Shown: in pieces, positions 13,198-31,485 of the stretch
How positions within the stretch are numbered: the first letter of the stretch is position 1
Layout of the letters: every line of letters starts with the position of its first letter
Assembly (NCBI RefSeq): GCF_030546695.1
Contig: NZ_JAUOTP010000008.1
Span: forward strand, 62,001-126,000
Length of the DNA stretch: 64,000 nucleotides
Direction: 5' to 3'
From: Sphingomonas natans
GTDB lineage: Bacteria; Pseudomonadota; Alphaproteobacteria; Sphingomonadales; Sphingomonadaceae
Notes under the pieces: model-generated
The model's input: only the letters and a program-made list of their open reading frames with translations
Told to the model about the DNA's origin: nothing
Database searches by the model: none
Position numbers and translations under genes: made by a program

Positions 13198-13896
13198 ATG
13201 GACGGGGCGATCCATCTCGATGCGGTGCGAGCGGGCGCCGGCTGGCTGCTTGCCGCAGTCACGCGCGAGATCACCTTATTCGCTTTGTTCGGGCTACTCG
13301 TGGGTGGGCTGGACGACCTGCTCGTCGATCTTCTGTGGCTCGCGCGGGGCGGCTGGCGCCGGCTGACCGTCTATCGCCGCCACGCGCGGATGACGATGGC
13401 GACGCTGCCGCCGGCCGAGGCACCCGGCGCCATTGCGATCTTCGTCGGCGCCTGGGCCGAAGGTGCGGTCATCGGCGCGATGGTGCGCACTGCGCTGACG
13501 AACATCCGCCACGAGGATTACCGCCTCTATGTCGGCACCTACCCGAACGATCCGGAGACGGAGCAGGCCGTCGATGCGATCGGCGACGCGCGCGTCCGCC
13601 GGGTCGGGGGGATCCTGCCGGGTCCGACGACCAAGGCGGAATGCCTGAACCGCGTATGGCAGGCGATGCTGGCCGACGAGGCGGCAGAGGGGCGTCGCTT
13701 CAAGACGATCATCCTCCATGATGCAGAGGACCTCATCCACCCGCTGGAGCTCACGCTCTACGACCGGATGATCGAGCGCTTCGATCTCGTCCAGATACCG
13801 GTGCTGCCGCTGATCGCGCGCGAAAGCCTGTGGGCGCGGATCATCTCGGCCACTTACGCCGACGAATTCTCCGAACCAAACTTCGCGTTAGCGTAG
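13198..13896 (+). pseudogene. NfrB-like glycosyltransferase, 5' part, split by the integrated element
   Basis: The N-terminal half of an inner-membrane GT2 protein related to NfrB (phage N4 adsorption protein B). The ATG at 13198 is chosen because a GGGGG Shine-Dalgarno sits just before it; a TTG at 13153 is the alternative. Visible are a membrane segment (about residues 20-45), a GT2 core with IAIFVGAWAEGAVIG, YVGTYPNDPE and the acidic ILHDAEDLIHP motif, then ARIISATYADEFSE at the break. Native codons end with GAA at 13873-13875. The last residues before the stop at 13896 come from the element. The remaining half is at 30766-31485; joined, they give 465 aa. Confidence 0.9.
13873..13896. other. 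attL: left junction of the integrated element
   Basis: Host codons run to GAA (13873-13875), then element sequence begins. Nine bases later comes GCGTTAGCGTAG (13885-13896), which is the exact reverse complement of CTACGCTAACGC at 30741-30752 by the right end. The shared core between the two junctions is only GAA, as expected for large serine recombinases, whose crossover core is 2-3 bp. Confidence 0.85.
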
Positions 13897-13944
13897 CAAA
13901 CGGCGTGGGCCTCGGCGGGTGGCGCTGTTCCGCGTAGCGGCTAT

Positions 13945-13969
13945 ATGATCCTGAAGACGACAGGATCAT
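13945..13969 (+). promoter_or_regulatory. Hairpin that would cover the ribosome binding site of the next gene
   Basis: ATGATCCTG (13945-13953) and CAGGATCAT (13961-13969) form a perfect 9-bp stem with a 7-nt loop. The right arm contains the AGGA that would serve as Shine-Dalgarno for the ATG at 13973. In RNA it could hide that site; as DNA it could be a repressor operator. Confidence 0.6.
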
Positions 13970-13972
13970 TTG

Positions 13973-14533
13973 ATGAGCTCGAAATTCTATCGGTTGCTGA
14001 CGGCAGACGGCTCTTGGCAAAAAGTAATCGACGACTGGCAACGGCAATGCGAGGAGGTCGGCGAGTCAATAGATGAGTTTGCGCCGGAATCACGAGCGCT
14101 CCTCCATGGCTTTGCAGAGTCGTGTGAAAAAGACACTTGGGCCGCAGGACTCTTCGAGGACAGCCGGTGCGTGGCGATTGCTATGCTGAACCGCACGATG
14201 CTACCGAAAACGAGCGGCTATACCTTGCGTGTTCGCCATGTAATTGTCTCGCCACTCTTAGATTATGGCGCTTTATCCAAAGATGCTTACGCCGATACGC
14301 TTGTATCGTTTACGTGGGCGGTCGTTCAGATTTCCGAAACCACTTTGCCTGCAGAGCATGTGAAGTTTCATCTTCGCAGCCCCGGCGACATGGATTACTT
14401 CCGTGCGTTTGGGAACGCTCTTGACAGCAAGGGCGTATTTGCACGAGTGAGCATGCACGGCGCTTGGTTGGCTATCACCAAGAGCAATGGCGAAGGGCAA
14501 CCTTCGGAGTCGATTGAGGAGGGTGCGGCATGA
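13973..14533 (+). CDS. Hypothetical protein (element cargo)
   Basis: A 186-aa soluble protein not recognised. The ATG at 13973 is preferred to the adjacent TTG. The middle of the protein (TLRVRHVIVSPLLDYG, then a long helix, then HVKFHLRSPGDMDYFRAFG) has an alternating strand-helix pattern that could be an acetyltransferase-like fold, but no decisive acetyl-CoA motif is visible. Base composition is clearly lower in GC than the flanking chromosome. It overlaps the next small gene by 4 nt, so the two probably form a functional pair. It lies between attL and the recombinase and points away from attL. Confidence 0.6.
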   Translation: MSSKFYRLLTADGSWQKVIDDWQRQCEEVGESIDEFAPESRALLHGFAESCEKDTWAAGLFEDSRCVAIAMLNRTMLPKTSGYTLRVRHVIVSPLLDYGALSKDAYADTLVSFTWAVVQISETTLPAEHVKFHLRSPGDMDYFRAFGNALDSKGVFARVSMHGAWLAITKSNGEGQPSESIEEGAA

Positions 14534-14688
14534 ATGAGGGCACCGCCAGGATGTATCTGGCTATCCAAGAAGCAGTCCACGAAGCTGTGGAAATTGTCGG
14601 CATCGACGGCGTGCGCCGAATGTCGTGGTTCGCATCATCGGATCAAGCAGAGGCGCTCTCTGCAATGCGAGAGCTTGAAGCCGCGTAA
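14530..14688 (+). CDS. Small hypothetical protein, coupled to the preceding gene
   Basis: A 52-aa ORF starting at an ATG that overlaps the preceding stop by 4 nt (ATGA). It encodes a mostly helical, acidic peptide (MNEGTARMYLAIQEAV, then EAVEIVGIDGVRR, ending MRELEAA). The tight overlap is the main support. An overlapping small helical partner of a larger unknown protein recalls toxin-antitoxin or inhibitor pairs, but this is only an inference from layout. Confidence 0.5.
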   Translation: MNEGTARMYLAIQEAVHEAVEIVGIDGVRRMSWFASSDQAEALSAMRELEAA

Positions 14689-14741
14689 GGTTGATCTGCT
14701 ACGTTTGAGTAGCAGTGCTTGCATCGTAGCGCGGGGATCCG

Positions 14742-16316
14742 TCAGCCTATCTCGCGCAGCCCCGTAGCCAGCGAAAGCACTTCGTCAATCTGCCGGACGA
14801 CCTCGATCTCAACGCCGCGCCGTTCTTCACTTGGGCGCACGATGATCCGAGCGATCATGGCACGCAAACGGGGTACGGCTTCGTCGGCGGCTTCTGGCAT
14901 GGCGAGCGCCGTCTGCAGGTCTGCGATCTGACGGCGGTATTCTTCTTCTAATCGAGGATGGAGCGCCAAGACCGTCGGCAACGCCTCGAGGCTGGCCAGC
15001 TCGCGTCCCAAGGCTTCCTTCTCCGTCCGGGCGGTCGCCAGCGCATCGCGTATCTCTGGCAGCTCACGGAAGCCCGACGTGAAGGCTTCAATAAGGCGAT
15101 CCAGACGGCGCTGCACCTCCGCCAGCTTCCGATCGAGCCGGGCTCGATCTTTCGCGAGACTGGCCGAGCGGCGCGCGAAATCCCGATGATACTCCCGCAC
15201 ATAGGCAGCCACGACGTCCGGCGCGAGCATGCCAGCCTGTAGATCCGCCAGCACTCTTTCCTGGTATAATCGCGAGTTAATCATGCGATTGTTAGTGCAG
15301 GTGCCACCGTTGCGATTGTTGCGGCAGCCCCAGTGATCGCCAGTGATCTTTGTCCAGCTGGTGCCGCAGACGGCACAGACGCCCAGCCCGGACAGCAGAT
15401 GCTTCGGCCGGCGCTGCCGTTCCGGTCGTGTTCGGCGTCCCGCCTCCAGCCGGTCTTGCGCCGCCTGCCAAAGATCCTCGGGGACGATGCGGAGACGCGG
15501 AACCTCTTGCTCGACGATCTGGCTCGGATCGCCTGGCCGCATCATCTTACGCCGCGTCTGAGGGTTGGTGACGACCTTCGACCGGCCGTAGACGATCCTA
15601 CCAATGTAGATCCGATTCCGAAGGATCCCGAAGCCAGTGCTCGGGCTACCGCTGATTGTCCCAGTCTGCCAGAATCCCTGCCGCGGTGGGGCGACACCTT
15701 CAGCGTTAAGGCGCTCGGCGATCGCGCGAGGGCTGCGACCGGCAACGAACTCCCGGAAGATACGGATGACGATCTCGGCTCGATCGGGCTCGATCTCTCG
15801 GAGCCCGGCGATTAGGTTGCCTTTTTCGTCCAGGCGGTTCGCGCGTCGATAGCCATAGGCCGGCCCTCCTGAAGATCGCCCCTGCGCGAGCGCTCCTCGC
15901 TGACCGCGCCGAACTCGCGCCCCCAGATCCGTCCGAAATTGCGAATCCATGAATCCTTTCAGGAGGCCGATCATCGGCGTGACCGTGCCGTCGAACAGCG
16001 TGAAGAGGCGCGCGCCAGCGAACTCGATACGCTCACGGATCGTGTGAGCGTCGGCGATGTGGCGGGCTACGCGATCAGTCGATTCCGCTAGAACCTGATC
16101 GATGCCGCCGGCTTCAACCAAGCGAAGCATAGCGTTCATGCCGGGTCGCTGATCCTCACCGATGCCTGCTGCACCGGACAAGGCGGCGTCTCGAAACTCG
16201 GCGATGATAGTCCAGCCCTCGCATTCCGCTCGCGCGCGGCAGGCCGCAATCTGGTCATCGACTGACCTAGGATTCTGATTATCGCTGCTGAAGCGGGCGT
16301 AGATTACGGTCCGCAC
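14742..16316 (-). CDS. Large serine recombinase (element integrase)
   Basis: A 524-aa site-specific recombinase that would integrate and excise this element. It starts with GTG at 16316. The resolvase domain has YARFSSDNQ with nucleophile Ser10 and the conserved ESTDRVAR segment near residue 80. The recombinase domain spans about 145-290 (GPAYGYRR, RAIAERLNAEGV). The zinc ribbon has cysteines at 314, 317, 331 and 340. A long coiled coil (about 365-450) follows, typical of the family, where it controls the direction of recombination. The gene is about 0.9 kb from attL and transcribed toward it. A separate directionality factor was not identified. Confidence 0.95.
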   Translation of the reverse strand: MRTVIYARFSSDNQNPRSVDDQIAACRARAECEGWTIIAEFRDAALSGAAGIGEDQRPGMNAMLRLVEAGGIDQVLAESTDRVARHIADAHTIRERIEFAGARLFTLFDGTVTPMIGLLKGFMDSQFRTDLGARVRRGQRGALAQGRSSGGPAYGYRRANRLDEKGNLIAGLREIEPDRAEIVIRIFREFVAGRSPRAIAERLNAEGVAPPRQGFWQTGTISGSPSTGFGILRNRIYIGRIVYGRSKVVTNPQTRRKMMRPGDPSQIVEQEVPRLRIVPEDLWQAAQDRLEAGRRTRPERQRRPKHLLSGLGVCAVCGTSWTKITGDHWGCRNNRNGGTCTNNRMINSRLYQERVLADLQAGMLAPDVVAAYVREYHRDFARRSASLAKDRARLDRKLAEVQRRLDRLIEAFTSGFRELPEIRDALATARTEKEALGRELASLEALPTVLALHPRLEEEYRRQIADLQTALAMPEAADEAVPRLRAMIARIIVRPSEERRGVEIEVVRQIDEVLSLATGLREIG

Positions 16317-16522
16317 GAGCGGGATCTCCCCTTTGTACAGCTGCGAAATCGCGACCGACTGCCGCCCTCGCGAGGGCTTTCACGAAATCGATCACGAGCG
16401 AGCTGGGCTGATCAACAGCACTGTCGAAGCGGGCGGATATCGTCACGGGAGCTCATTCTCCTGGACGGGCGGGGGCGAACAGCAAATGAGTCTAACGCGC
16501 ACTTTGAACCTCATCGTCGGGG

Positions 16523-16542
16523 TGTGTGTTTTCATACACACA
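16523..16542. promoter_or_regulatory. Palindromic operator candidate between recombinase and regulator
   Basis: TGTGTGT-N6-ACACACA is a perfect 7+7 palindrome in the 267-bp divergent gap between the recombinase (16316, leftward) and the HTH gene (16584, rightward). Its position 42 bp before the HTH start suits autoregulation and control of the recombinase. The downstream TTGATTGATCAA (16550-16561) is a second, smaller dyad. Confidence 0.6.
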
Positions 16543-16583
16543 TAACGCTTGATTGATCAAGGGGCGGGTGAAATAAGCGGGCG

Positions 16584-17156
16584 ATGCAGACAAAGAAGAA
16601 ACAAGACGCGGTCGACTTTCCGTACCGACACACTGAAGCGGTTCGGCTGCTCGCCGAGGGTCTGGAACGGGCCAAAGCAAGGGGCGTTTCGCTCCGCGCG
16701 GTCGCCAAAGAAATGCGTTACGCAGAGCCTGTGAGCATATCTCACATGGCAACCGGAAGGAGCGCGGTGCCAATCGACCGTGCTCATGAAATTGCATCTG
16801 TCTTGAAGCTGGATGCTGACCTGTTCATGGTGGCTGCGCTCGAGCAGCGCCTTCCTGAGTTCGATTGGGCTGCAATACGGTTGCTGATGACTGCCGAGAG
16901 GGAGCTCGCCGTATTTCGCGTCGTGACCGGCAGGGCGCTTTCGGACATGACCGATGAACAGCTCGCCATCATCTCCAATGTCGCGAATGCGGACGACCCG
17001 GAGCGTCGCTGGATTAAGCCTCTAGAAGTGCCTCTCGTCGAGGCAGTTAGAAAGGCTGATCCAAGCTCAAGCAGTCTCGGGCTGGACTCGAACACCTTGT
17101 CTGCGATCGCCGCGGTCGTGGCCGAAGCCCAACCTCGTCAGCCCGGCCTGTTCTAG
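16584..17156 (+). CDS. Helix-turn-helix regulator of the element
   Basis: A 190-aa protein with an XRE-like N-terminal DNA-binding region at about residues 18-75: AVRLLAEGLERAKARGVSLRAVA then SISHMATGRSAVPIDRAHEIASVL, which is the helix-turn-helix layout of phage-type repressors. The C-terminal part (70-190) is helical and not recognised. It diverges from the recombinase across a gap holding a perfect palindrome, so it is the likely controller of integration or excision. It ends 14 nt before the HUH protein gene and may regulate that as well. Confidence 0.75.
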   Translation: MQTKKKQDAVDFPYRHTEAVRLLAEGLERAKARGVSLRAVAKEMRYAEPVSISHMATGRSAVPIDRAHEIASVLKLDADLFMVAALEQRLPEFDWAAIRLLMTAERELAVFRVVTGRALSDMTDEQLAIISNVANADDPERRWIKPLEVPLVEAVRKADPSSSSLGLDSNTLSAIAAVVAEAQPRQPGLF

Positions 17157-17169
17157 CCCACCCGCAATA

Positions 17170-18126
17170 ATGGGTGGGCGTGTCCGAGGGACTCGAGACG
17201 GAAAAAAGCCCGAAAATTGTTTCAACGTGCGTGACGAAAGCTTCAAAATGCTCCGGAAGATCTCAGCTCGGCGACGTCAAGATTTTAGCGGCCCTCGTCG
17301 AGCGATTCCGGCAATCGCTCGACAGAAACGAGAGCTGAAAACGCTTCTTGAGCGCGAGCGCCAGCTCATCGACAGCATGATGTCCGACGGACTGATACGA
17401 GCAGCATTCTTGCGCGGCCATGGCGAACCTATCGAGCCCTTTTCAGTATGGCACGATAATGACCATAGCTCAAACCACACGGAGCTTTCACCCTCATGGC
17501 TCCCGAAATGGGATCAGCTCTCTGAGGCTATCAAGATGTTTGCGGCCTTTGACACCGGCCAAGAGCTTCAATGCTGCTATTCGTTCACCGCTCACATCGC
17601 TCCGGATCTCATAACCCGATGGACGAGCGGGCGTCGAGACCTGATGGCCAATGTGCAGCAAGCTCTTCGACGGGCTTTGCATAAGCTGAACATTGCGGAC
17701 AGCGAATTTTGCTACGTGGTAGAGACGCGTTCGCGCTCTGGTCGCTCAAAGACGAGGCCACACCTTCATGGGTTCGTGCTGGCAGACGATCCTCGTGATG
17801 CGTCCAGATTTCGGACCGCAATCGAGCTCGCTCTCAACCCGACATTGCTGAAGCACGGTCGCAAGCGAGAGATTGAAGTCAAGCGAGCCTATGATCCACG
17901 CGACGAGATTGGAGGGCGGGCGCGGTGGGTCAGCTACATTCTCAAGAATGTGCAGCGATACGACCCCGTCCTCGGCAAGCGCCGCGTGTTCATGTCGCAA
18001 GAGCTAACCAAGACGGCACGGGAGGCGTGGTCACTTCGTCGTTATCCCGCCTCAGAGCCATCGCCTGCGGGACCCGTAACGCAGGTGCGGAGCATGTCAC
18101 AGAGTCTCGCGTTGCTGGTTGAATAA
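17170..18126 (+). CDS. HUH-type, rolling-circle Rep-like endonuclease
   Basis: A 318-aa protein with the three motifs of HUH single-strand DNA endonucleases in the right order. Motif 1-like is CYSFTAHIAPDLI (about 136-148). Motif 2 is RPHLHGFVL, with the metal-binding His198-Leu-His200. Motif 3 is WVSYILKN, with Tyr256 and Lys259 (YxxK). Such proteins nick an origin and covalently hold the 5' end to start rolling-circle replication or transfer. A basic, coiled N-terminal region of about 70 aa precedes the domain. The ATG at 17170 is used; Met27 (17248) is an alternative. No helicase gene is adjacent. Confidence 0.75.
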   Translation: MGGRVRGTRDGKKPENCFNVRDESFKMLRKISARRRQDFSGPRRAIPAIARQKRELKTLLERERQLIDSMMSDGLIRAAFLRGHGEPIEPFSVWHDNDHSSNHTELSPSWLPKWDQLSEAIKMFAAFDTGQELQCCYSFTAHIAPDLITRWTSGRRDLMANVQQALRRALHKLNIADSEFCYVVETRSRSGRSKTRPHLHGFVLADDPRDASRFRTAIELALNPTLLKHGRKREIEVKRAYDPRDEIGGRARWVSYILKNVQRYDPVLGKRRVFMSQELTKTAREAWSLRRYPASEPSPAGPVTQVRSMSQSLALLVE

Positions 18127-18400: not shown

Positions 18401-19003
18401 ATGCACATTTTCCAAGCCGAAACCGACACGGACATCCTCACCATCTTTGCCAAAACATACGACGATGCCGCCAACCTCTTTTGCGCGTGGCATCTGATCA
18501 ACTATGGAGACGCGTTGGAGCGGTTTTCCATAGCCCGCTGGGCAAAGACCCGCATCGAGCGTTATGGCCTACCACTGCGCCGTGCGCTGGCTGCCGGACT
18601 CTCTGGCGTCGGCGTTCTGGAGGGGGACATCTGGCGCATCTACGGAGTCGATGAGGCTCCTATGGCCTTCGTCCTCGTTGGCTTCGCCACCGATGACAGT
18701 GACCACCAGGCTGCAATATTCGCCGAGAGTGTCGAACGCGCGGAAGAGATCTGGGATCACGTCCAGCACCAACTCCAACATATGCCTGCAGGCTGGCTGG
18801 GATCCGAGTGGTCGGAATGGCAGCTGCTAGGCCACGGTCGACACCAGCAAGCAGCCGAAAGCCTTCGGAGGGAGGGAGTCGGAATTTACTCGCCTGACAC
18901 CGGCTGGGCAATCCTGCCGATCGACTATGCGGCATTCGATCTCGATCCGCCGGAAGATGATCCTCGGGAGCATAGCGCCCGGTCGGTGATCAGACAGGCA
19001 TGA
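18401..19003 (+). CDS. Hypothetical protein (element cargo)
   Basis: A 200-aa acidic soluble protein not recognised. Start at 18401 is supported by GGAG 9 nt upstream. The N-terminal part (MHIFQAETDTDILTIFAKTY, with FCAWHLINYG) and the middle (EAPMAFVLVGFATDDSD) suggest an alpha/beta fold. Trp and Asp are frequent toward the C-terminus. No membrane segments or known catalytic motifs were seen. The gene stands alone between the HUH gene and the nested palindrome at 19102-19177. Confidence 0.55.
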   Translation: MHIFQAETDTDILTIFAKTYDDAANLFCAWHLINYGDALERFSIARWAKTRIERYGLPLRRALAAGLSGVGVLEGDIWRIYGVDEAPMAFVLVGFATDDSDHQAAIFAESVERAEEIWDHVQHQLQHMPAGWLGSEWSEWQLLGHGRHQQAAESLRREGVGIYSPDTGWAILPIDYAAFDLDPPEDDPREHSARSVIRQA

Positions 19004-19177: not shown

Positions 19178-19189
19178 TATAATCTTGCC

Positions 19190-19599: not shown

Positions 19600-19819
19600 G
19601 GAGCAATAATCGGAGCTTTCGGGGCGGTCGTCGCGGTCAAAGCTGCTACATCAAACCTACGGTCGCTCAAATGACGTGAGCCTCATCCGCGAGCGGGCGA
19701 TCTCAGCGCCGGCACACCGGCTAATGCGCAGAAACCTCCCAATAGAATAACGCAACCCATTTACAACGCGTCAACAGTGCTGCCAATGCGCGTAGGGGCA
19801 AACGAGCATGGGGTGCGCA

Positions 19820-20326
19820 ATGAGATTCGGCATATTGACGGCGATCGTGGCGATGACTGTCGGCGCCGGTTCGGCGCAGGCGGCGCCAATTCTCTATACG
19901 ATCAGCGGTGGCTTCAGCGGCACGTTCAGTCTCGATTATGACACGCAGACGCTCTCTAGTCTGTCGCTCGATATCGGTGGGCGCTTGTTCGATGAGACCA
20001 ACTCAAGCGCCTTGTTTCAGAACAGCGGATACACGATCGGCGGCAATATCGGTGGAGCGAGCACACTCATGGTGAATAATACGCCGAGCCCGCTCAATAA
20101 TGACTTCATATTGTTTCTTCCGCAGAGCAGCTTTCAGAACCTTCAAGCGTCAATCGGCTACAGCACGAACGGCATGAACTATTATTCGGGGCGCGAGGTC
20201 ACTATCAGGGCTGGATCTAGCGGCGCTGTCCCAGAGCCTGCGACGTGGGCGATGTTCATTGGCGGCTTTGGATTGGTCGGTGCAGGTATGCGCCGTCGTT
20301 TAAAATTTAACTTCAAATACGTCTGA
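19820..20326 (+). CDS. Exported protein with PEPxxWA-CTERM sorting tail
   Basis: A 168-aa exported protein. The start at 19820 gives a short signal peptide (MRFGILTAIVAMTVGAGSAQA, cut after AQA); an in-frame ATG 12 nt upstream is less likely. The mature part is rich in Ser, Gly, Asn and Thr, with likely beta strands. The C-terminus has the sphingomonad sorting signal: VPEPATWAM, a short hydrophobic helix (FIGGFGLVGAGM), then basic RRRLK. Such tails are recognised by an exosortase-like system and linked to exopolysaccharide producers. It is unusual to see one on an integrated element. Confidence 0.85.
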   Translation: MRFGILTAIVAMTVGAGSAQAAPILYTISGGFSGTFSLDYDTQTLSSLSLDIGGRLFDETNSSALFQNSGYTIGGNIGGASTLMVNNTPSPLNNDFILFLPQSSFQNLQASIGYSTNGMNYYSGREVTIRAGSSGAVPEPATWAMFIGGFGLVGAGMRRRLKFNFKYV

Positions 20327-20812: not shown

Positions 20813-21859
20813 GTGGACGATCCGAGAGCGTCTATCCCCCTGCTGCGCAGCCTCGAAGGCCTGCGCCTGATCTCCAGCCTCGGGATCGTCTCGATTCACA
20901 TGCTCCCTCATGTCGGGCTTATCCCGCCCGACGGGTTCGATCTGTTTGTCGATTTGTTCTTCGTCATCTCGGGCATCGTTATCGGTCAGCTCTATGTCGG
21001 CGCGATCGAGAACTGGAGCACGTACGGCACCTTCCTGCGCCGCCGGCTCGCACGCATCTATCCGCTTCATCTCGCCACCCTCCTTTTTTATATCGCGATC
21101 GGCTTCGGGGTGGCCCGCTATCACCTCACCGTCGATGATCCGTCGCGCTTCGACACCGGCCAGATCCTGCCGAACCTGCTGCTAGTGCAGGCATGGTTTC
21201 CAAACGGGCGGCTGTCGTACAACTTCGTCTCTTGGTCGATCAGTGCGGAGCTCTTCGCTTATCTCTGCTTTCCGTTGATCGCTGCGCTCGCCACCCGGCG
21301 CGCGGCCTGGGGGCTGGCGGCGCTGCTGCTGATGTTGGCCCTCAGTATTGCAATTGCCGAGGGGCTGCTCGGCAGGCCGCTCACCGCCCTCCGCTGGGAC
21401 TGTTCGCTGCCGCGGGTGATCCCGAGCTTCGCGTTCGGGATCTTCATGAGTCGTTTCGGCGGCGACATTCTCCGATGGGCAGGTGGGGCAACCGTGCGAG
21501 CGGCCTTCACCGTGTTTGCGATCGGAACCGTCGCGGGCATGGCGCTGGGAGTCTCGAGCTACACGCTGTTGGCGCTGATCTGGGGGTTGGGGGCGAGCGC
21601 CTATCTATGTGATCTCGACGGCTGGCGGACGATCGCGGCGTGGCGGCCGATCAGCGACCGCGGTTACCTCACCTATTCGCTCTATATGCTGCACGTGCCA
21701 GTCTCGACCGTATTTTTATCGTTCGTTTTCCCACGTTTGCTTGGGGCATCGCCAGCCGCGCTCGCTGCCTCGATCGTGCTGGCAACGATCATTCTGTTCG
21801 CCGCAGCTGAGCTTTCCTTCCGTCTGTTTGAGCAACCGCTGCGAAAGCGGCTGCGCTAG
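20813..21859 (+). CDS. Acyltransferase 3 family membrane protein
   Basis: A 348-aa integral membrane acyltransferase of the OafA/NodX/WecH type, starting at GTG 20813. These enzymes transfer acetyl or other acyl groups to sugars of O-antigen, exopolysaccharide or glycolipids. The family-typical N-terminus is present: RSLEGLRLISSLGIVSIHML with the catalytic-type His30 in the first membrane segment. FDLFVDLFFVISGIVIG and LRRRLARIYPLHL follow. About ten hydrophobic helices run to FEQPLRKRLR at the C-terminus. No partner glycosyltransferase lies on the element, so it may modify a host surface glycan and thereby alter phage binding. Confidence 0.88.
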   Translation: MDDPRASIPLLRSLEGLRLISSLGIVSIHMLPHVGLIPPDGFDLFVDLFFVISGIVIGQLYVGAIENWSTYGTFLRRRLARIYPLHLATLLFYIAIGFGVARYHLTVDDPSRFDTGQILPNLLLVQAWFPNGRLSYNFVSWSISAELFAYLCFPLIAALATRRAAWGLAALLLMLALSIAIAEGLLGRPLTALRWDCSLPRVIPSFAFGIFMSRFGGDILRWAGGATVRAAFTVFAIGTVAGMALGVSSYTLLALIWGLGASAYLCDLDGWRTIAAWRPISDRGYLTYSLYMLHVPVSTVFLSFVFPRLLGASPAALAASIVLATIILFAAAELSFRLFEQPLRKRLR

Positions 21860-22466: not shown

Positions 22467-25400
22467 TTAAGCAGCGCGGCGCAGCGTGTAGCGCTCTCGT
22501 TCGGCGGCGACATGCCCAAGCCTGACGAGAGCGGCGAGCGTGGCAGCTATTCGAGGCTCGACTTTGAGCCCCTGCGCGTAGCGCCGCGCGATCTCCGCGC
22601 TGGTCAGCACAGCACCGCTACGCAGGTCGGCAAGGACCGCGGCTGTCTGGCCGATTGCTTCCCGCGGGAAGGTGGGCTTCTTCGCCTTCGCCTCCGGCAG
22701 TAGCGCCTCGATCTGCGCGGGCTTGGCGGCGGTCGGCAGCGCGGTGAGGCCTGCCTTGGCGATCTGATAATCGGGGCGCAGCCAGCGGACCGTGCCGGCT
22801 TTTTCCTCGGCATGGCGCTCGGCGTTGAGCGCGACGAGGCGGGTGACGATCTCGGCATCGGACAGGTCACGCGGCCAACCATAGGCATCGGCGACCGCGG
22901 CATCGATGCGATCGTGCAGCTCGGAGAGGATGTCGATCCGGCCGCGGCGGCGCTGGTCCTGCTCGGCCGCGGTCAGCGGACCGTGCTGGAGCAGCTTTTC
23001 GCGCAGATTGTAGAGTCCAGTGAGCGTTAGGTCGGCGTGCTCGGTGAGCACGTCCTTCCGGGTCGCGTCGAGTTCCTCGGCGAGGTCGCCGATGACCGTG
23101 CGCTGACCCGGTGTGGCGTCGGGGAACGGAAATGGGTCAAAGCACTGGCTCTTCGTGTATCGTGGCCGATCCTCAAGAGTTCCACCCTGCGCCGATGTCC
23201 ACGCAAGATCGAATTTTGACCCCAAACATCCAATATGGTACGCATCATCGCTGGCAATGCAGATCAACATGTTGTCGGCGAGAATGGTAGCGTTGAGAAA
23301 CTGAAAGACGCGATGTCTAGCGGTTTCCACAGTTACGATATAGCGGGTCAGCCCTGCGAGTGCCGGCCGCAGTTCCGTCCGTGGCTTGCCGAAAATCCAC
23401 CAGCTGCTCGCATACGCCTGGGCATCGGGGGTGGGAGACTTGATCGCTTGCTTGTCACGGTCGACTTTTACCGTGGTCAACAAGTGCTGATAAATCTCCG
23501 GGTAAGACCGCCGAACTTCGGCTTCGCTCAGGCCGAACAGATCGATGACCATTTGTTTACGCGAGCGGGCCATTAGATCGCGGCCGTTGCGATAATGGCG
23601 GATGTATTGCTTGAGGCCGTCGCGCCTTCCGAATCCAAGCATCTCAGCCTCTTTGGGGGACACAATAAAGCCAGAACCGTGAAGCTTCACGCCGGGCGAG
23701 CAAATCCAGTTGTTCGCCCGCAGAGCCTTAGTCTGCGTAACATCGGAGCCTACTGTCAGATCAGCGTGAATTTCGTCTGCCGCATCTCGCAGTTCGATAC
23801 GCGGTGCATCGCTATTTAACCCGCTTTCATGTGTGACCTCGTATAACACGCCCTTCCGCGTCCCAGCCTCCGCAACCGTCATCGCGATCCGCACCGCGGC
23901 CGCATCCGCGGTAGCCTTAGTCCACGGGTGATCCGGGATCGCCATCACCAGACTGATCGGTTTTCTCGCATCCATCCGCGCCGCAATTACTCGTCGACTG
24001 AACTCCTGCGTGATTGAATTGGTCGTCACGAAACCGAAGCGCTTGAGCCGGGTACCCTTCTCAGTGAGCCGTTCGGCGGCGCGGTCCCACCAATACATCA
24101 CGAAATCGGCCGACTTGTTGATCTTCGGGTTCGCCTTCCACAACGCGACGGCATAGGACTCGCCAAGCCGGCTGCGGACGTCCTTGCCGCCGATGAAGGG
24201 TGGGTTGCCAACGATGTAATCTGCCTGCGGCCATTCTGGGCGGCGCGGGTTGGGGAGTTCGATGCCGCTCCCGTCGGCGCGCGGGCGCTCGGGATCGTGC
24301 TTGAGCACCGCATCCATCGCGGTGATGTTGCTCAAGCGTTCGAGTACGGGATCCGCTATCTCGCCGCCGTTGCGCATCTGCCATTGCAGATAGCCGAGCC
24401 ACAGCACTAGTTCGGCGATCGCGGCGGCGCGCGGATTGAGCTCGAGGCCGAGAAAGTTGCGCGGGTGGACGGTAGCGGTCTCCAGCGCGAGCGCTTCCTG
24501 CCCGCCGAGATCGGCAAGCACCTCGAGCACGTCGCCTTCGAGCCGCTTCATCAGTTCAAGCGCGACGTAGAGGAAGTTGCCGGTACCGCAGGCAGGATCG
24601 AGTACCTTGGTTTCGGCCAGCCTGACGTGGAAATCGTGGACCGCAAGGATCGCGGCCTGTGGGTTGGCGGTGCGCTCGCGCTCGACGGTCCCCAGGACTT
24701 TAGTTTCCCATTCCCGCTGCAGCGGCTCGATGATCGTCGCGATCACGAGTCGCTCGACATAAGCGCGCGGCGTGTAATGCGCACCGAGCCGCTTGCGTTC
24801 GACTTTGTCGAGCGCCTGCTCAAGCAATGTGCCGAAAATCGCAGGCTCTACCTCGGTCCAATTGTGCTTGGCGGCTTCGTAGAGCTCGCCAATCTCTTCC
24901 TTGTAGAGAGGGATTGCGGTGCGTTCGGCGAACAGGCCGCCGTTGAATTTGCGGACCTTCCTACGGAGAACGGTCGAAACCAAGCCCAAGTCCATGCTCT
25001 GCCACAGCTCCTCAAGCATTGGCGCGAAGCTCTCGGGATTGGCGCGAGCGTCGGAAAGCACGTCCGCGAAGCTTCCGGCCTCGAGCAACCCCGTGTCCTC
25101 GGCAAACATCGTGAAAAGGCAACGCATCAGGAAATGCGCCACGGGCTCCGGCTGGTAGCCGCGCTCCTCAAGGAGCTTGCTGACGCTGGCGAGCCTCTTG
25201 GCGATGTCGCGTGTGACCGCCGCGGAATGTTTGGCGGGATCAAGCGACTGCGGATCCAGCCAGATTGCGCGTAGCCGCTGGCGGATAACGGGATTGCGAA
25301 GGTCGTCGAGGTAGATGCGGAAGCCGGAGCGGTCGGGAAACTGGCGGTAGTTCTTTCCCTGCCCCGAGAAGTCGGCAAACACCTCGATAGCGTGGCCGAC

Positions 25401-25871
25401 ATCGACGACCAGGATGAACGGCGGCCAGCCGTGCTCGGTGGGCAGCGCACGGGCATATTGTTCGGCTTGCTCGCGGGCGTTACGCATTAGCACGTCCCAG
25501 CCGCGCTGTGCGCTGCGGCGGCCGCGCAACTGCGGCAAGATGAAGCCGGGGAGCGCGGTCTGCTCGGGCGGGAGCGTCACTTCTTTGGCGCCGCCGGGTT
25601 CGCGGCTCTGCTTGGCCTCGAGCACGAAGCTGCCACGTTTGTAGAGATCGATGCGGCCGTGGCCGGACTTGCCGGCTTCGTCGCGGAACGTGACCGCACG
25701 TTCGAAGACATAGTCGTTGCGGTGGTGGGTAGCCGCCGCAGGCTCGGGCTGCGGTAGATCGAGCAGTGTGCAAAGTTCGGTTAAAAACAGCGGGAAATTA
25801 GCGCGTTCGGCGCCGCCCTCGTTTGCACGCCAGCGCGCGATGAAGCGTTCGAGTACGGCGTCTTCCCCCAT
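22467..25871 (-). CDS. Single-chain restriction-modification enzyme (type IIG/MmeI-like)
   Basis: An 1134-aa protein that appears to join a nuclease and an adenine DNA methyltransferase. The N-terminal PD-(D/E)xK-like site is GRIDLY (Asp75) with FVLEAKQ (Glu85, Lys87). A helical linker follows. The methyltransferase core has KRLGAHYTP (about 360-368), motif I DPACGTGNF (425-433) and catalytic motif IV NPPF (556-559). A target-recognition region probably spans about 750-950, and a helical C-terminus follows. One protein would both modify and cut DNA at a recognition site. It could also be a methylase of a larger system, but no partner genes flank it. It is the clearest defence gene on the element. 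Confidence 0.85.
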   Translation of the reverse strand: MGEDAVLERFIARWRANEGGAERANFPLFLTELCTLLDLPQPEPAAATHHRNDYVFERAVTFRDEAGKSGHGRIDLYKRGSFVLEAKQSREPGGAKEVTLPPEQTALPGFILPQLRGRRSAQRGWDVLMRNAREQAEQYARALPTEHGWPPFILVVDVGHAIEVFADFSGQGKNYRQFPDRSGFRIYLDDLRNPVIRQRLRAIWLDPQSLDPAKHSAAVTRDIAKRLASVSKLLEERGYQPEPVAHFLMRCLFTMFAEDTGLLEAGSFADVLSDARANPESFAPMLEELWQSMDLGLVSTVLRRKVRKFNGGLFAERTAIPLYKEEIGELYEAAKHNWTEVEPAIFGTLLEQALDKVERKRLGAHYTPRAYVERLVIATIIEPLQREWETKVLGTVERERTANPQAAILAVHDFHVRLAETKVLDPACGTGNFLYVALELMKRLEGDVLEVLADLGGQEALALETATVHPRNFLGLELNPRAAAIAELVLWLGYLQWQMRNGGEIADPVLERLSNITAMDAVLKHDPERPRADGSGIELPNPRRPEWPQADYIVGNPPFIGGKDVRSRLGESYAVALWKANPKINKSADFVMYWWDRAAERLTEKGTRLKRFGFVTTNSITQEFSRRVIAARMDARKPISLVMAIPDHPWTKATADAAAVRIAMTVAEAGTRKGVLYEVTHESGLNSDAPRIELRDAADEIHADLTVGSDVTQTKALRANNWICSPGVKLHGSGFIVSPKEAEMLGFGRRDGLKQYIRHYRNGRDLMARSRKQMVIDLFGLSEAEVRRSYPEIYQHLLTTVKVDRDKQAIKSPTPDAQAYASSWWIFGKPRTELRPALAGLTRYIVTVETARHRVFQFLNATILADNMLICIASDDAYHIGCLGSKFDLAWTSAQGGTLEDRPRYTKSQCFDPFPFPDATPGQRTVIGDLAEELDATRKDVLTEHADLTLTGLYNLREKLLQHGPLTAAEQDQRRRGRIDILSELHDRIDAAVADAYGWPRDLSDAEIVTRLVALNAERHAEEKAGTVRWLRPDYQIAKAGLTALPTAAKPAQIEALLPEAKAKKPTFPREAIGQTAAVLADLRSGAVLTSAEIARRYAQGLKVEPRIAATLAALVRLGHVAAERERYTLRRAA

Positions 25872-26813: not shown

Positions 26814-27482
26814 TCATCCAATCCAGCAGCACGACAAATCTCGGCTGGGTTCATACAAAAATATTAGCCGCCCGCGAAAGCTGAACTGAAATGCTCGGTT
26901 TGGGAACCACGCCGTCCACCCCGGCCCCTGTAATTCAACGAGATTCGTGTCGCCACAATGGACAGGTTCGGCAGTGGTCGGCTTCACGCGAGACCCGGCG
27001 GTCACCGTCCGAACCGCCGAAGGTGCCGCCGGCGTGCCTTCCTGCAGCTGCTCGTGGTAGCCGGTCGATAGCTTGCAGCCGGCACTGCGGGCCGTCGAAA
27101 TCGCCGTCATTTCCATTCCAGGTGCGGACGAGGCTTTGATCAGATTTGGCAAGACGGCGACAGGCAACAAGGTAACCTGAGGTGTCAGCGCCTCGCTGGT
27201 CCCATTCCGCGGTGCGGTCAGATAATAACGTGCATAGAGCTTCACGGGAAGCTCGTGACTCTCACACTCGACAAGATATTCAAACTTCCGAGGTAGACTT
27301 ACAGTTAGCGGTTGGCCGGGAGTAATATGTCCGCTCGGGCGACCATCAATCTTGAGATCACATGCAAACTGATCCGCCACGAACGTCACCGGATCTACGT
27401 TAGCTGGCCGTTGGCTAATCCCTGCACCTGCAGCGGAAAGCATAATCATCATGGCGAGGAGCAAGTTAAGCAGGAGTCGCAT
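26814..27482 (-). CDS. Exported hypothetical protein, second gene of a membrane operon
   Basis: A 222-aa protein with a good signal peptide (MRLLLNLLLAMMIMLSAAGA, cut near residue 22). A GGGAG ribosome site precedes its ATG inside the end of the upstream gene, with which it overlaps by 17 bp. The mature part has six or more cysteines and beta-type segments (QFACDLKIDGRPSG, KFEYLVECESHELPVKLY), consistent with a disulphide-bonded periplasmic domain. No family was recognised. The overlap and shared strand argue that it works with the larger membrane protein upstream. Confidence 0.65.
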   Translation of the reverse strand: MRLLLNLLLAMMIMLSAAGAGISQRPANVDPVTFVADQFACDLKIDGRPSGHITPGQPLTVSLPRKFEYLVECESHELPVKLYARYYLTAPRNGTSEALTPQVTLLPVAVLPNLIKASSAPGMEMTAISTARSAGCKLSTGYHEQLQEGTPAAPSAVRTVTAGSRVKPTTAEPVHCGDTNLVELQGPGWTAWFPNRAFQFSFRGRLIFLYEPSRDLSCCWIG

Positions 27483-28755
27483 GCGGATCTCCCTCGCTAG
27501 AATCGGGACTTTCTTTCAGCGAATCTTTGATATTGTCGGCGGCACGGGTGAGGGGGCCAGCCAGTGTTGCGGCCACCGCTCCAGCGGCGATCTGAACATA
27601 TGGGCCGTAAGAAGTAGGCAGCAAGCTGACAAATGCTTTGAAAGTTGAGGCGATGCCTACCGCCGCGGCAAGCCACGCAACCAGAAGGAGTGGAGTCGCG
27701 CCCACGCCATTCCCGAGCCCCGCGGCGATCAGGATTCGGCCGACACCCGATGCGTATGCCAACAGTATGACGCCGCCGGCCAATGCAACACCTGTAAGGG
27801 ACAGCCACTCAGACGAAGGAATTTGATGGTCTGACGTTTCCCATTTCGAGACCGCTGCCGTCACAGCCCCAGCAATAGCAACACGCGTCTCCAGCCAAGC
27901 TTCTGGGCGATCGTACCGGTCGACCTGGAGGTACAAGGTCATCGATGGAAGGCCGCCATGCCCAATGCCGGAGACCAACGCGTTTTCAACAAGCTCCTTA
28001 TAAAACGCAGCCTTGCTGAGGCCGCCTGCGCCGGTCGCAACTGCTGGAAAGACAATGGCGTTGGTCACATGCCGGCCGTCTGCGAGTTGACGGAAGAGGC
28101 TCTCGAGGCTCGAAGCTAACGCGGTGCGTACACAGTCTTGATAGCCATTCTCCGAGAGGGAGATCCCAAATTTCACCCAGCATGGCTGGTTTTCCGAACC
28201 GGGGTTGGAATCAACGATCACGGACAAGCGAGCAAGATTGGAGACGCCGAAACGGCTACCATAAATCCCCCTGCAAGGGGCAATCGAAGCCTCTCCAAGA
28301 GCCTGAGTCGTGTCGGGTTCGTGCGCGATCGCACAGCCCGCCGAATGGGCTTCCGCCAAGCGTCCCATCGTGGACATGCGTTCGTCTACGGAACTGACGA
28401 GGAGCAAATCCTTGCCCCGTTTTGTCCAGACATCGTGCGGCTCGATCGAGCGATCGTAAAATTGCGCTTCGGCTGCAACCAAGGTCACCGCTTTACCGTC
28501 GATCGTTAAGAACTTGGCTAAAACTGCCTGCGACCCGCTACCGACGCGGCCACTTTTATCCACCATCGCCTCAAGTGCTTTGTCGAGCGCGAGCCGTGGC
28601 GACTCGGCCAGCTGGCTATAGGGAATTACTGTCGCCCAATGTGGCGGATACTCAATCGACAAGCGCCAGAGGCCATACCAACCGATTGCGAAGAGAAGCA
28701 TGGCACTTAGGAACGCAACCAGACGTCGCCGCGCATCGCTTTGTGCCTTCGGCAT
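27466..28755 (-). CDS. Membrane protein with macro-domain-like motif, unknown function
   Basis: A 429-aa protein with one transmembrane helix at about residues 13-32, a large soluble region of about 280 aa, and three hydrophobic helices near 317-342, 354-376 and 384-402. The soluble region contains FPAVATGAGGLSKAAF (236-251), which resembles the phosphate-loop of macro domains (P-A-x-x-T-G-x-G-G-x), and a strand-helix alternation compatible with one; several other macro-domain landmarks are not obvious. A GGAG site precedes the start. If real, this is a membrane-anchored ADP-ribose-type binding protein paired with an exported partner. I do not know its function. Confidence 0.6.
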   Translation of the reverse strand: MPKAQSDARRRLVAFLSAMLLFAIGWYGLWRLSIEYPPHWATVIPYSQLAESPRLALDKALEAMVDKSGRVGSGSQAVLAKFLTIDGKAVTLVAAEAQFYDRSIEPHDVWTKRGKDLLLVSSVDERMSTMGRLAEAHSAGCAIAHEPDTTQALGEASIAPCRGIYGSRFGVSNLARLSVIVDSNPGSENQPCWVKFGISLSENGYQDCVRTALASSLESLFRQLADGRHVTNAIVFPAVATGAGGLSKAAFYKELVENALVSGIGHGGLPSMTLYLQVDRYDRPEAWLETRVAIAGAVTAAVSKWETSDHQIPSSEWLSLTGVALAGGVILLAYASGVGRILIAAGLGNGVGATPLLLVAWLAAAVGIASTFKAFVSLLPTSYGPYVQIAAGAVAATLAGPLTRAADNIKDSLKESPDSSEGDPHATPA

Positions 28756-28969
28756 TGTCGTTGTCTCCCAACAACTGACACTTTACTCTAGCTTATAAGA
28801 TGACCGGCGAATGATAGAGAAGCAACCCATTTCTCGCGTCGATGCCGTGAAACTTAACGAGTTTTCTTGACCGGTGAGCATTGCGATCAACGTTGAGTAA
28901 CCGGTTCCATGGACGACCCGAACCGAGGAAGAAGGCGCCCACTGCAACCCTGCCTTGCTCACAGGCTTT

Positions 28970-29333
28970 TTAGTTGACCGCCTTCGTATGCTTTCCAGGT
29001 GCGATCCCCGCGCCGATCAGGTCCAGAAAGCGGGGCTCACCGGCATCGCCCGCAGCGCGATCCGCCTTCGCCATATCCTTCAGCATGGCGCCGAACGCTT
29101 CGCTCTGGAGCCGAACATCGCGAGGCGTTTGCAGGTTGATGTCGCTGGCGATCATGCCCGCCGCAATCAGCATCAGCGCACTCAGCGTAACCCCGATGTC
29201 GATCGACCCCTGGGCATTTACGGCAGACGGTTTTGCCCCGGCGACAGCTACGGCGATGGCGCGCGCAACGGCCTCCAACTCTTCGTTGAAGCCCGGCTTG
29301 GCGTTCAGTTCTTCGATCTTCGATCTTCGACAT
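28970..29333 (-). pseudogene. Small hypothetical gene put out of frame by a 7-bp triplicate
   Basis: An ATG at 29333 with GGAG about 9 nt upstream is followed at once by three tandem copies of the 7-mer TCGAAGA (29330-29310). With two copies the frame would read MSKIEELNAKPGFNEEL and continue through a membrane-type segment (IDIGVTLSALMLIAAGMIA) to DLIGAGIAPGKHTKAVN, about 118 aa. With three copies the ATG frame is lost. The distal frame is also open from an upstream ATG at 29404, so some product might still be made. The family is unknown. It is divergent from the small gene at 29454. Confidence 0.55.
29310..29330. repeat. Three tandem copies of a 7-bp repeat at a gene start
   Basis: TCTTCGA is repeated exactly three times (complement TCGAAGA), immediately after the likely ATG of the leftward gene. 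A change of one copy moves the reading frame by one base, so copy-number slippage would switch the gene on or off. Confidence 0.85.
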
Positions 29334-29453
29334 GGCCAGACTCCAGCTTGCAAGGCACGCACAAAAGGCTCGCTGCGGCCCGGCGAACAGATCGCCGTCG
29401 GCATCGCATCCGATCAAGCACTCGTTCGTTTTCAGCAAGTTAGGAGAGGTCCA

Positions 29454-29669
29454 GTGAAGCCAAACAAGTCGCACGATACGCCCAGTGATGTCGACGCGGA
29501 GGCGGGCCAGGTGCTCGTTGAAGGACCAGATGGTATCATGATCTCATTCACCCCCGAGGCCGCGGTGGAGACCGGGCATCGGCTGCAGGGTAGCGCGAGC
29601 AAGGCGCCGGACCAGGCAGACGGGAAGCGGCCGCCGTTCGATGCGCAGTCTCTGCTGCCGAGGCGTTAG
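29454..29669 (+). CDS. Small hypothetical protein
   Basis: A 71-aa hydrophilic protein starting at GTG 29454 with a strong AGGAGAGG ribosome site 5-6 nt upstream, which decides the start within a longer open frame. The middle is acidic (DVDAEAGQVLVEGPDGIMIS, then FTPEAAVETG) and the end is basic and Pro-rich (KRPPFDAQSLLPRR). No known domain was found. It is divergent from the phase-shifted small gene, and the two may be a pair. Confidence 0.6.
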   Translation: MKPNKSHDTPSDVDAEAGQVLVEGPDGIMISFTPEAAVETGHRLQGSASKAPDQADGKRPPFDAQSLLPRR

Positions 29670-30023
29670 GCATTCTACCGAGGCCGCAACGTGATGGCGA
29701 CAAGTGGTGGTGAGACGTGCTGGTGGCCAAGCTATTCAGTCAAAAGATTGTCTCGAAGTGGGGTACCAAACGTGCTTGCCCAAACCGGTAAGCCACTTTG
29801 AAATTGTGCTCGATAGGAACCTCAAGCGCAGGCCGCATGAGATCGGCAAGCCGGTCCGCCGAGACTGATCTCATCCGAGCATTCGTCGCCTCGTTGAAGT
29901 ATACCTTTCCGAGGCAAAACGTTGAGATGCTTGCCATGCGGCCGGGTCGTCTCTTTAGGGTTGAAAGTCCATTTCCGAGACGTATGGTGACATCATCTAG
30001 AACCGAACGAGACGAGGGCGCTG
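29670..30023. other. 354-bp gap before the resolvase; possible transposon end and res region
   Basis: No supported gene. A segment starting AAGTGGGGTACCAAACGTGC at 29756 and continuing to GGTAAGCCA (ends 29798) begins GGGG and ends GGTAAG, in the manner of Tn3-family terminal repeats. It resembles the segment near 22283. The 90 bp before the resolvase start would normally hold its res site, but I could not pick out clear subsites. Confidence 0.4.
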
Positions 30024-30575
30024 ATGTTGGTGGGTTATGCGAGGGTTAGTTCCAGCGGACAGTCCCTCGACGTTCAGGAGGAGGCACTGCAGGAGGCTGG
30101 ATGTGAGAAGGTTTTCGCTGAGAAGCGGAGTGGTTCCAGCGTTACCGGACGCTCTGCGCTCGCAGATGCGCTCGATTTTGTGCGTGAAGGGGATGTGCTG
30201 ATGGTCACGCGTCTCGATCGCCTCGCGCGATCAGCCGTTGACCTGCATTCGATCGTCGCTCGCCTCAGCGCGAAGAAGGTCGAGTTTCGTTGCCTGCAGC
30301 AAGGAGGCATGGATACGGCCAGCAGCACGGGCAAGCTGCTACTGGGAATGCTCGCCTCCATTGCTGAGTTCGAGACCGACATCCGTCGAGAGCGTCAGCG
30401 CGAGGGCATCGACCGCGCAAAGGCTAATGGCGTCTATCGGGGGCGCAAACCCAGCATCGACGCCGCGCTCATACGATCGCTGCGCGATCAGGGCATCGGT
30501 GCGACCGAGATCGCGAAGCAGATCGGTGTCGGGCGCGCGAGCGTGTATCGAGTTCTGTCCACAGCGACGCCCTGA
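30024..30575 (+). CDS. Tn3-type serine resolvase/invertase
   Basis: A 183-aa small serine recombinase. The catalytic domain has YARVSSSGQS with nucleophile Ser9, the VTRLDRLARS arginine motif (about 61-70) and the GKLLLGMLASIAEFE helix leading to ERQREGIDRAKANGVYRGRK. The C-terminal helix-turn-helix (IRSLRDQGIGATEIAKQIGV then GRASVYRVL) binds the res or inversion site. It would resolve cointegrates of a Tn3-family transposon or invert a segment. No transposase is present, so it is either a leftover or serves the element itself, for example by resolving multimers. It lies about 190 bp from attR. Confidence 0.9.
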   Translation: MLVGYARVSSSGQSLDVQEEALQEAGCEKVFAEKRSGSSVTGRSALADALDFVREGDVLMVTRLDRLARSAVDLHSIVARLSAKKVEFRCLQQGGMDTASSTGKLLLGMLASIAEFETDIRRERQREGIDRAKANGVYRGRKPSIDAALIRSLRDQGIGATEIAKQIGVGRASVYRVLSTATP

Positions 30576-30740
30576 CCCACAAAGAGAGAAGTCCTAAGCC
30601 GGGCGCAAGTCCTCCATCCGGGTCGAGCCTGTCTGGCGGAGTCAATTCGGCTTTGCCCATCCACAGGCCCCGTGGCTTCGGCCGCTCTTCACGTACACAC
30701 GGCTGGCCGTGGATTGCCCGACCTGGAACCCGAATAGGTA

Positions 30741-30765
30741 CTACGCTAACGCACCATTCAAGGAA
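30741..30765. other. attR: right junction of the integrated element
   Basis: CTACGCTAACGC (30741-30752) is the reverse complement of the 12-mer near attL. Ten bases later GAA (30763-30765) marks the crossover core, and host coding sequence resumes with TCG CAC CAG at 30766. The preceding 165 bp (30576-30740) contains no supported gene. Confidence 0.85.
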
Positions 30766-31485
30766 TCGCACCAGAAGAATCTGGGCCTGCGCGAGGCGAT
30801 CGGGGCGGCAGTGCCCTCGGCCGGGGTCGGCTGCGCAGTGTCGCGCGCGATGATGGCGCGAATCGCCGACGAGCGGGGCGGACTGCCCTTCGCGGCCGAC
30901 TGCCTGACCGAGGATTATGAGCTGGGGCTGCGCGTCCGCGCGCTGGGCGGGCGCGGCGCGTTCGTCGCGATCCCCAGCGCTCCGGGCGAAGCCCCCGTGG
31001 CGGTGCGCGCGCATTTCCCCGAGACGTTCGAGGAGGCGGTCCGCCAGAAGACGCGCTGGATCATCGGCATCGCGCTCGCCGGCTGGGACCGGCTGCGCTG
31101 GGACGGCGGCGTCACCGAGCGCTGGATGCGCCTGCGCGATCGGCGCGCGCCGATCGCCGCGCTCGTGCTGGCGGCGGCCTATGTCACGCCCGCCTTGATC
31201 CTGCTCGGCTGGGCGACCGGCGCGGAGCCGGACTGGCCGCCGGGCGTGGCGACCGCCTTCCGGATCACGACCGGCCTGCTCGCGTGGCGGCTGCTGATCC
31301 GGGGGCTGCTCGTCGCGCGCGCTTATGGCTGGCGCGAGGGCCTGTTCGCGGTACCGCGGGTATTTATCGGCAACATGATCGAGATGGTCGCCGCGAGACG
31401 CGCGGTCTGGCGCTACACACCCGGCGAGACCCCTATCTGGGACAAGACCCGGCACCGCTTCCCGGACAGCGCGCGGTGCGATTGA
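30766..31485 (+). pseudogene. NfrB-like glycosyltransferase, 3' part, split by the integrated element
   Basis: The C-terminal 239 codons of the interrupted GT2 gene. They begin SHQKNLGLREAIGAAVPSAG, which follows directly from YADEFSE of the 5' part. The second acidic motif LTEDYELGLR, the RQKTRWIIGIALAGW (QxxRW) motif and three or so membrane helices (about 31150-31320) follow. The longer open frame starting at 30709 begins inside the element and would lack the nucleotide-sugar binding half, so any product would be inactive. The NfrA-like gene follows, overlapping at 31476-31485. Confidence 0.9.

Follow-up and report, generated by a model that had tools for sequence, protein, structure and literature searches.

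Within a 64,000-nucleotide stretch of Sphingomonas natans DNA (NCBI RefSeq assembly GCF_030546695.1, contig NZ_JAUOTP010000008.1, positions 62,001 to 126,000; hereafter the window), a gene for an NfrB-like polysaccharide synthase of glycosyltransferase family 2 (GT2) is cut in two by a 16.9 kb island that encodes its own large serine integrase. The reading that we hold with high confidence is that the attachment site of the island (attP) recombined with a bacterial site (attB) made up of the codons of a conserved YADEFxExH motif, that the split gene is probably inactive, and that this gene, which is conserved and probably dispensable, looks like an insertion hotspot. According to this model, crossover at a GA core would have left the hybrid sites attL and attR and would have cut the gene between conserved motifs so that neither half is active, with the integrase of the island as the presumed agent of insertion; excision, given a directionality factor, would make the gene whole again. 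Evident in the sequences compared are the split, the empty sites, the layout of the attachment sites and the choice of the same codon by phages with integrases that belong to one clade with that of the island.

A preliminary description of this DNA had claimed that a 16.9 kb serine-recombinase element splits a single gene exactly in frame, and both parts of that claim hold. When joined, the two halves (13198-13875 and 30766-31485) give a stop-free reading frame of 465 amino acids, while the stretch between them (13876-30765) measures 16,890 bp, has the large serine integrase at its left end and shows a G+C fraction of 0.601 vs 0.675 in the remaining window. The joined protein aligns without gaps at the junction with intact orthologues, the best of which, in genome G003, is 74% identical over residues 7-460 and reads YADEFAESHQKSL where the window has YADEFSE/SHQKNL. 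Further intact copies are present in G002, in Sandaracinobacteroides and in G006 and Sphingomonas vulcanisoli (these last two probably being one genome). The gene order in G003, DnaX-NhaA-gene-partner-ThrS, is that of the window without the insert, that is, an empty attB. The comparison with relatives lacking the insertion, which the description had proposed, thus revealed intact joined orthologues, and not separate complete genes for each part or a joined sequence found in no genome. A second intact copy was sought in the assembly of the window's genome (4.56 Mb, 13 contigs) and none was found, only a 66-residue weak match being obtained beyond the two halves.

Pfam recognises GT2 domains in both halves. 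The joined protein has HDAED at position 174, TED at 274 and QKTRW at 320, with no literal DxD; since the insertion leaves HDAED in the N-terminal part and TED and QxxRW in the C-terminal part, the inactivation claimed earlier is likely. According to the accessible part of a study of Escherichia coli (PMC8669469), NfrB has the glycosyltransferase motifs DxD, TED and QxxRW and a C-terminal MshEN domain that binds cyclic di-GMP. The joined protein matches PRK14716.1-5 (NF011307) over nearly its full length, with a score of 514.7 vs a cut-off of 431. The NfrB model (NF008411) gives 333.3 bits vs a cut-off of 1170, and because this match ends at model position 474 of 723 and the protein ends at 465 amino acids, the region of the MshEN cyclic di-GMP domain is absent. 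The earlier NfrB-like identification is consequently retained as to the GT2 fold family and the general likeness to NfrB, and given up as to membership by the NF008411 cut-off and as to the cyclic di-GMP domain. No solved structure was matched in sequence by the orthologue of the synthase that was searched. Its sequence suggests that the gene product probably makes a surface sugar.

A partner gene, whose product is a predicted outer-membrane beta-barrel, lies behind the synthase gene in most relatives checked (it does not in L077 or G300). The AlphaFold model of this partner, built with three sequences and of low confidence (pLDDT 48.7), contains 12 strands, and the structures that match it best are outer-membrane barrels (such as OmpG, FapF and PgaA), which suggests a barrel and nothing further. 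Pfam models, NfrA_C included, gave no match to the partner of the window, while the partner at L012 matched a tetratricopeptide repeat (TPR) weakly and NfrA_C likewise (20.9 bits vs a cut-off of 25). When whole genomes were searched with NfrA_C, the best matches in G106 and G403 were the partner, below the cut-off, and eight of ten genomes, that of the window among them, had none. In the comparison with NfrB/NfrA, the partner is barrel-like, and its likeness to NfrA_C is weak and confined to some relatives. Taken together, synthase and partner look like a synthase-plus-barrel exopolysaccharide system that resembles nfrBA, the synthase not being classed as NfrB.

Serine integrases use attP sites of roughly 46-50 bp, in which inverted arms surround a 2-bp core. 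The island has a 12-bp inverted repeat just inside its ends (Table 1), for which two exact matches were found with up to one mismatch permitted, a number reached in 2 of 100 shuffles. If the ends of the element are placed side by side, they form CTACGCTAACGC-N10-GA-N10-GCGTTAGCGTAG. The same layout, with minor changes in the arm, occurs on the element side of attL in G300, G216 and the virus records G399 and G402, so that the attL sites of five insertions have in common a GA core and the arm C(G/A)TTA(G/C)CG(T/C)A, the mirror arm being present in attR of the window element, G216 and G300. An intact site is found in a free phage, Mae-JY29 of Microcystis (PP438421.1). The recombinase of this phage shares 53.2% identity with the window's integrase, and some 245 bp beyond its gene there is a 46-bp sequence, TTGCGATAACGC-N10-GA-N10-GCGTTACCGCAA (L103 4311-4356; PP438421.1 11761-11806). 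The sequence is an unbroken attP with the geometry that was predicted, and it constitutes an independent test of the layout proposed for the window. As a separate observation, the Mae-JY29 attP matches Sphingomonadaceae elements, and the true host of this phage may not be Microcystis but a sphingomonad living in the culture. A 32-base attR pattern, searched with up to 3 mismatches in 397 genomes, returned the window's own site only.

The short inverted repeats near the ends, together with the small resolvase-type protein (183 amino acids) encoded near the right end, would also be expected if a Tn3-family or other transposon using that resolvase had moved the DNA. This origin is extremely improbable and was rejected: a Pfam scan of 18 open reading frames (ORFs) inside the interval detected no transposase, of Tn3 type or other, the 12-bp repeat is set inside the ends, and phages with related large integrases use the same site. 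No invertible segment for the 183-aa recombinase was evident among the 12 inverted repeats listed.

Site-specific insertion by the large integrase is consistent with what is seen in other genomes. In G300 a single contig carries both halves of the synthase gene, separated by 39.5 kb; a 54%-identical integrase adjoins the N part, and the insert encodes portal, terminase, tail and primase families (31 ORFs; best 25 of 85 families). In G216 the halves are on two contigs, and a 56%-identical integrase again adjoins the N part. In the virus records G402 and G399 the N part ends at residues 228-230 and adjoins integrases of 62-63% identity, the former record encoding terminase, portal and endolysin (27 ORFs; best 25 of 32 families). 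In all four the gene is cut at the codon used in the window, and NhaA lies upstream of the N part, as in the window. Within the phage-record collection, no record carries the synthase gene.

The relationships among these integrases point to a change of target. A tree of 36 rows was built from 29 of 30 loci (L001, the window's own, being represented by the window protein), six virus loci and the window protein, 58 integrase places having been found. Nine of the 36 rows, namely the window's integrase, those of G300, G216, G399 and G402 and four virus contigs, form a clade with support of 99/97. A tRNA gene adjoins the integrase at 23 of the 27 other integrase loci (9 tRNA-Gly and 14 tRNA-Met; none in 4) and at none of the four synthase loci scanned, and the next clade of the tree consists of exactly the nine tRNA-Gly rows. 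Given the place of five of the nine clade members beside the synthase gene vs tRNA genes in 23 of 27 other relatives, the simplest reading of the sequences is that the integrase target switched from tRNA-Gly to the synthase gene. When the target labels were tested on the tree, three changes were counted for the five synthase rows, with the four contig-edge rows entered as a separate group, and the claim made for the clade covers all nine. As to tRNA genes in general, they are more typical targets of tyrosine integrases, and the large serine integrases of Sphingomonadaceae (L015-L041) lie beside tRNA-Gly or tRNA-Met in the 23 of 27 loci just mentioned.

The serine integrase elements are not the only ones found in this gene. 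A search of 397 genomes of the family with the joined protein gave matches in 359, and 30 split or weak cases were inspected besides G000, G216 and G300. An assembled insertion, with both halves on one contig and 0.66-39.5 kb between them, was found in at least 11 of the 359 (G000, G300, G294, G041, G161, G227, G379, G238, G023, G144 and G355). This count is a lower bound, as the search listed best matches only and splits may be missed. In four more genomes the break falls at a contig end with a marker of an element beside the gene, this being a serine integrase in G216, a tyrosine integrase in G194 and G199, and in G329 a homologue of the passenger gene of IS1595-type elements. Genomes with a strong best match plus further matches (G086, G197, G251, G306, G318, G357) were taken as having an intact gene and a paralogue, and those with a partial gene (G163, G193, G211, G249, G257, G264, G280, G298, G308, G315, G370) were kept out of the interrupted count. 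Among the latter, the single-contig genome G211 (L099 1-900) matches synthase residues 13-238 only, with no C-terminal half at E 1e-10, and in G193 the N part is cut short around residue 213, where the contig ends. G116, where the C part starts at TEDYEL and the N part breaks off before that motif, close to the end of a contig, was likewise not counted.

Insertion points and contents vary among the elements. Six genomes have related transposases (67-85% identical) around residues 138 and 160, accompanied by a passenger gene of about 160 amino acids; the one transposase tested with Pfam is IS1595/ISXO2-like. These inserts (L083-L088) measure 3.5-4.4 kb, the four at about codon 160 coming from four genera, and are bounded by GGCATTATGTAGCAAA-type inverted repeats and apparent short direct repeats, for example GAGCGCGC in L083. 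Around residue 214, G041, G194 and G199 have tyrosine integrases that share 58-64% identity (Pfam was run on two of the three) and adjoin the C part of the gene. The G041 element is 10.8 kb long and has a gene for a large terminase subunit (L091 4163-5755, reverse-strand count), and it may be a small prophage remnant or a satellite; its integrase has just two relatives in virus contigs, both distant (34-35%). In G294, 22.7 kb are inserted at the TEDYEL motif, with a Mutator transposase and a fused E2/E1/JAB-type protein (L089 2547-4784), a gene of the kind found in phage-defence islands. The 0.66 kb insert of G355 (L092 930-1590, reverse-strand count) lies near the codon used by the window island and has an imperfect copy of the flanking codons on either side; neither attachment-site arms nor element genes were recognised in it. 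Finally, G005, G277, G276 and G382 have overlapping or adjacent frames that resemble frameshifts.

For comparison, the neighbouring gene nhaA was sought in the same 397 genomes. It matched in 341, and in the 23 weak, truncated or multiple cases inspected no assembled insertion was found, gaps being smaller than 0.3 kb. The difference between 11 of 359 for the synthase gene and 0 of 341 for nhaA corresponds to a Fisher p of 0.0009, which becomes 0.006 if one nhaA case is counted and 0.00006 if the four contig-end cases are added to the synthase gene. From these sequences the synthase gene looks like a family-wide insertion hotspot.

Several observations weigh against parts of this picture. The hotspot comparison uses a single control gene, which may be less dispensable than the synthase gene; in many genomes the best nhaA match is not the copy adjoining the synthase gene, and nhaA is itself split over contigs in G347 and G120 and partial in G004, G163 and G203. 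The G300 genome is 79% complete and 5% contaminated, and its attR reads GAG where the others have GAA, so that the common core narrows to GA at most. Four of the nine rows of the integrase clade are virus contigs on which the sequence runs out at the integrase or shortly beyond it, with the host junction out of view. L023 (G351), which has no assigned site, is the first to join the clade and lies between it and the tRNA-Gly clade, with weak support (84/82), so that the switch could belong to more than one branch. A circular form and excision are hypothetical, and no directionality factor was identified in the element.

This last point bears on whether the island might be a regulated DNA switch, an arrangement known as active lysogeny, in which excision under some condition would restore the synthase. 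Both halves are open and in frame, the attachment sites are exact and a precedent exists in the SP-beta prophage, at least in the accessible part of PMC4191935; since open halves can mean no more than a recent insertion, however, and a directionality factor was not identified, we consider such a switch unlikely.

More weight attaches to the question of why this particular gene is hit. The most likely reason suggested by the sequences is that the gene is conserved in sequence and yet dispensable, and that its loss may at times be favoured, for instance where its glycan would serve as a phage receptor. In the plainest form of this explanation, elements simply use motif-conserved DNA in a host-dispensable gene as an attB, and the loss of the gene brings no benefit. 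We give this form about an even chance. Insertion points fall within or next to conserved motifs (YADEFxExH for the serine integrases, the codons just before it for the tyrosine integrases, TEDYEL in G294), and most sampled integrase relatives use tRNA genes; the IS1595-type insertions at codons ~138 and ~160, on the other hand, are not phage integrations, and frameshift-like splits also occur. These two kinds of event suggest that loss of the gene is tolerated or favoured.

If loss is favoured, the benefit could be escape from phages. In E. coli, loss of nfrB protects from phage N4 and makes the cells fully or partly resistant to certain other phages, and insertions, deletions or stops occur in nfrB or dgcJ in some strains, according to the accessible part of PMC8669472. 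By analogy, glycan loss and phage resistance in the present host are plausible. Elements that land in the synthase gene might accordingly persist because competing phages that bind its glycan would be excluded, the restriction-modification enzyme and the acyltransferase of the island serving the same end. Besides the E. coli precedent, the NfrB-like synthase with its barrel-like partner, the unrelated element classes striking the gene and the cargo of the island, with a type IIG enzyme and an acyltransferase, are in line with such an adaptation. However, a phage of sphingomonads that uses this glycan is putative, the MshEN domain is absent, NfrA_C has no match in the window's genome, and dispensability alone would give the same pattern; receptor loss is therefore possible rather than probable. 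A broader proposal, in which the synthase would be a shared docking and kill site in Sphingomonadaceae for several element classes, each with its own codon, occupation would remove a receptor and exclude rival phages, one clade would have switched from a tRNA gene, and excision would make the whole a reversible switch, seems doubtful to us.

Besides the integrase, which falls in the PHROG integrase family phrog_95 and gives weak sequence matches to the solved integrases 9iu2 and TP901-1, the island encodes the functions listed in Table 1. No phage structural family (head, tail or packaging) was detected in a PHROGs scan of 10 of the 20 selected element ORFs.

Table 1. Features of the window, with coordinates counted from its first nucleotide.
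Feature	Coordinates	Strand	Remarks
NhaA	11954..13138	-	Upstream neighbour; query of the control search
5' half of the NfrB-like GT2 gene	13198..13875	+	226 codons; conserved HDAED
attL core GAA	13873..13875	.	Crossover dinucleotide probably GA; sequence and comparison with relatives
attP arm GCGTTAGCGTAG, left end	13885..13896	+	9 bp inside the end
ORF	13970..14533	+	Between attL and integrase; no family found
Large serine integrase	14742..16316	-	524 aa; presumed integrase of the element; Pfam PF00239 Resolvase, PF07508 Recombinase, PF13408 zinc ribbon, above cut-off
Helix-turn-helix regulator	16584..17156	+	Weak match
ORF	17170..18126	+	318 aa; no family found, no plasmid match
ORF	18401..19003	+	No family found
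PEPxxWA-CTERM sorting-signal protein	19808..20326	+	
Acyltransferase-3 family membrane protein	20813..21859	+	O-acetyltransferase-like
MmeI-like type IIG restriction-modification enzyme	22467..25871	-	1134 aa; PADLOC PDLC03627, 1460.6 bits; structure match 5hr4 MmeI
ORF	26814..27482	-	No family found
ORF	27466..28755	-	429 aa; no family found, no plasmid match
Small serine recombinase	30024..30575	+	183 aa; resolvase/DNA-invertase type; right end
attP arm GCGTTAGCGTAG, right end	30741..30752	-	10 bp inside the end
attR core GAA	30763..30765	.	Sequence and comparison with relatives
3' half of the NfrB-like GT2 gene	30766..31485	+	239 codons and stop; TED and QKTRW motifs
Partner gene, predicted outer-membrane beta-barrel	31476..32501	+	341 aa; start GTG 31476 or TTG 31482 overlaps the GT2 stop
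ThrS	32523..34568	+	Downstream neighbour

The splitting of a polysaccharide gene by a prophage is already known from SP-beta (PMC4191935, in its accessible part). In the open-access literature, covered in part and at the level of titles and abstracts, no report was found of the present site, of a switch from tRNA to synthase or of a family-wide recurrence, and a preprint on Caulobacter phages (PMC12633290) cites NfrB merely as background in the part available. Were loss of the synthase indeed to confer phage resistance, the choice of integration site would itself be a strategy of superinfection exclusion, reached by unrelated elements. The clade described here represents an apparent move of a large serine integrase from tRNA genes to a protein-coding gene, with both attP and attB in hand, and should be useful for studies of target change, while the barrel partner gene offers a route to the polymer that the glycosyltransferase-partner pair possibly makes.

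As regards known systems, the window resembles SP-beta in Bacillus subtilis spsM in that a large serine recombinase element sits in a polysaccharide synthesis gene with its integrase beside an attachment site, so that precise joining would restore the gene. SP-beta, however, is a 134 kb prophage for which developmentally timed excision was shown and a directionality factor proposed (PMC4191935, accessible part), whereas the window, in a sphingomonad relative, has a 16.9 kb island of putative excision, and a scan of 10 of its 20 selected ORFs recognised no phage structural gene. With E. coli NfrB/NfrA (PMC8669469 and PMC8669472, both as far as accessible) it shares a GT2 synthase with TED and QxxRW whose gene is overlapped by the next one, encoding a predicted outer-membrane barrel; it differs in having no MshEN domain and a 341-aa partner without the TPR-rich region of NfrA, and in missing the NfrB and NfrA_C cut-offs, and a phage receptor role is putative here. 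The joined protein does exceed the cut-off of PRK14716.1-5 (NF011307), an assignment that does not fix the product of the family. Finally, in domain order, attP geometry and its 53% identity to the Mae-JY29 recombinase, the integrase is like those of phages with large serine integrases (phrog_95), and it stands apart from most of its sampled relatives, 23 of 27 of which adjoin tRNA-Gly or tRNA-Met genes, in having a protein-coding synthase as its target.

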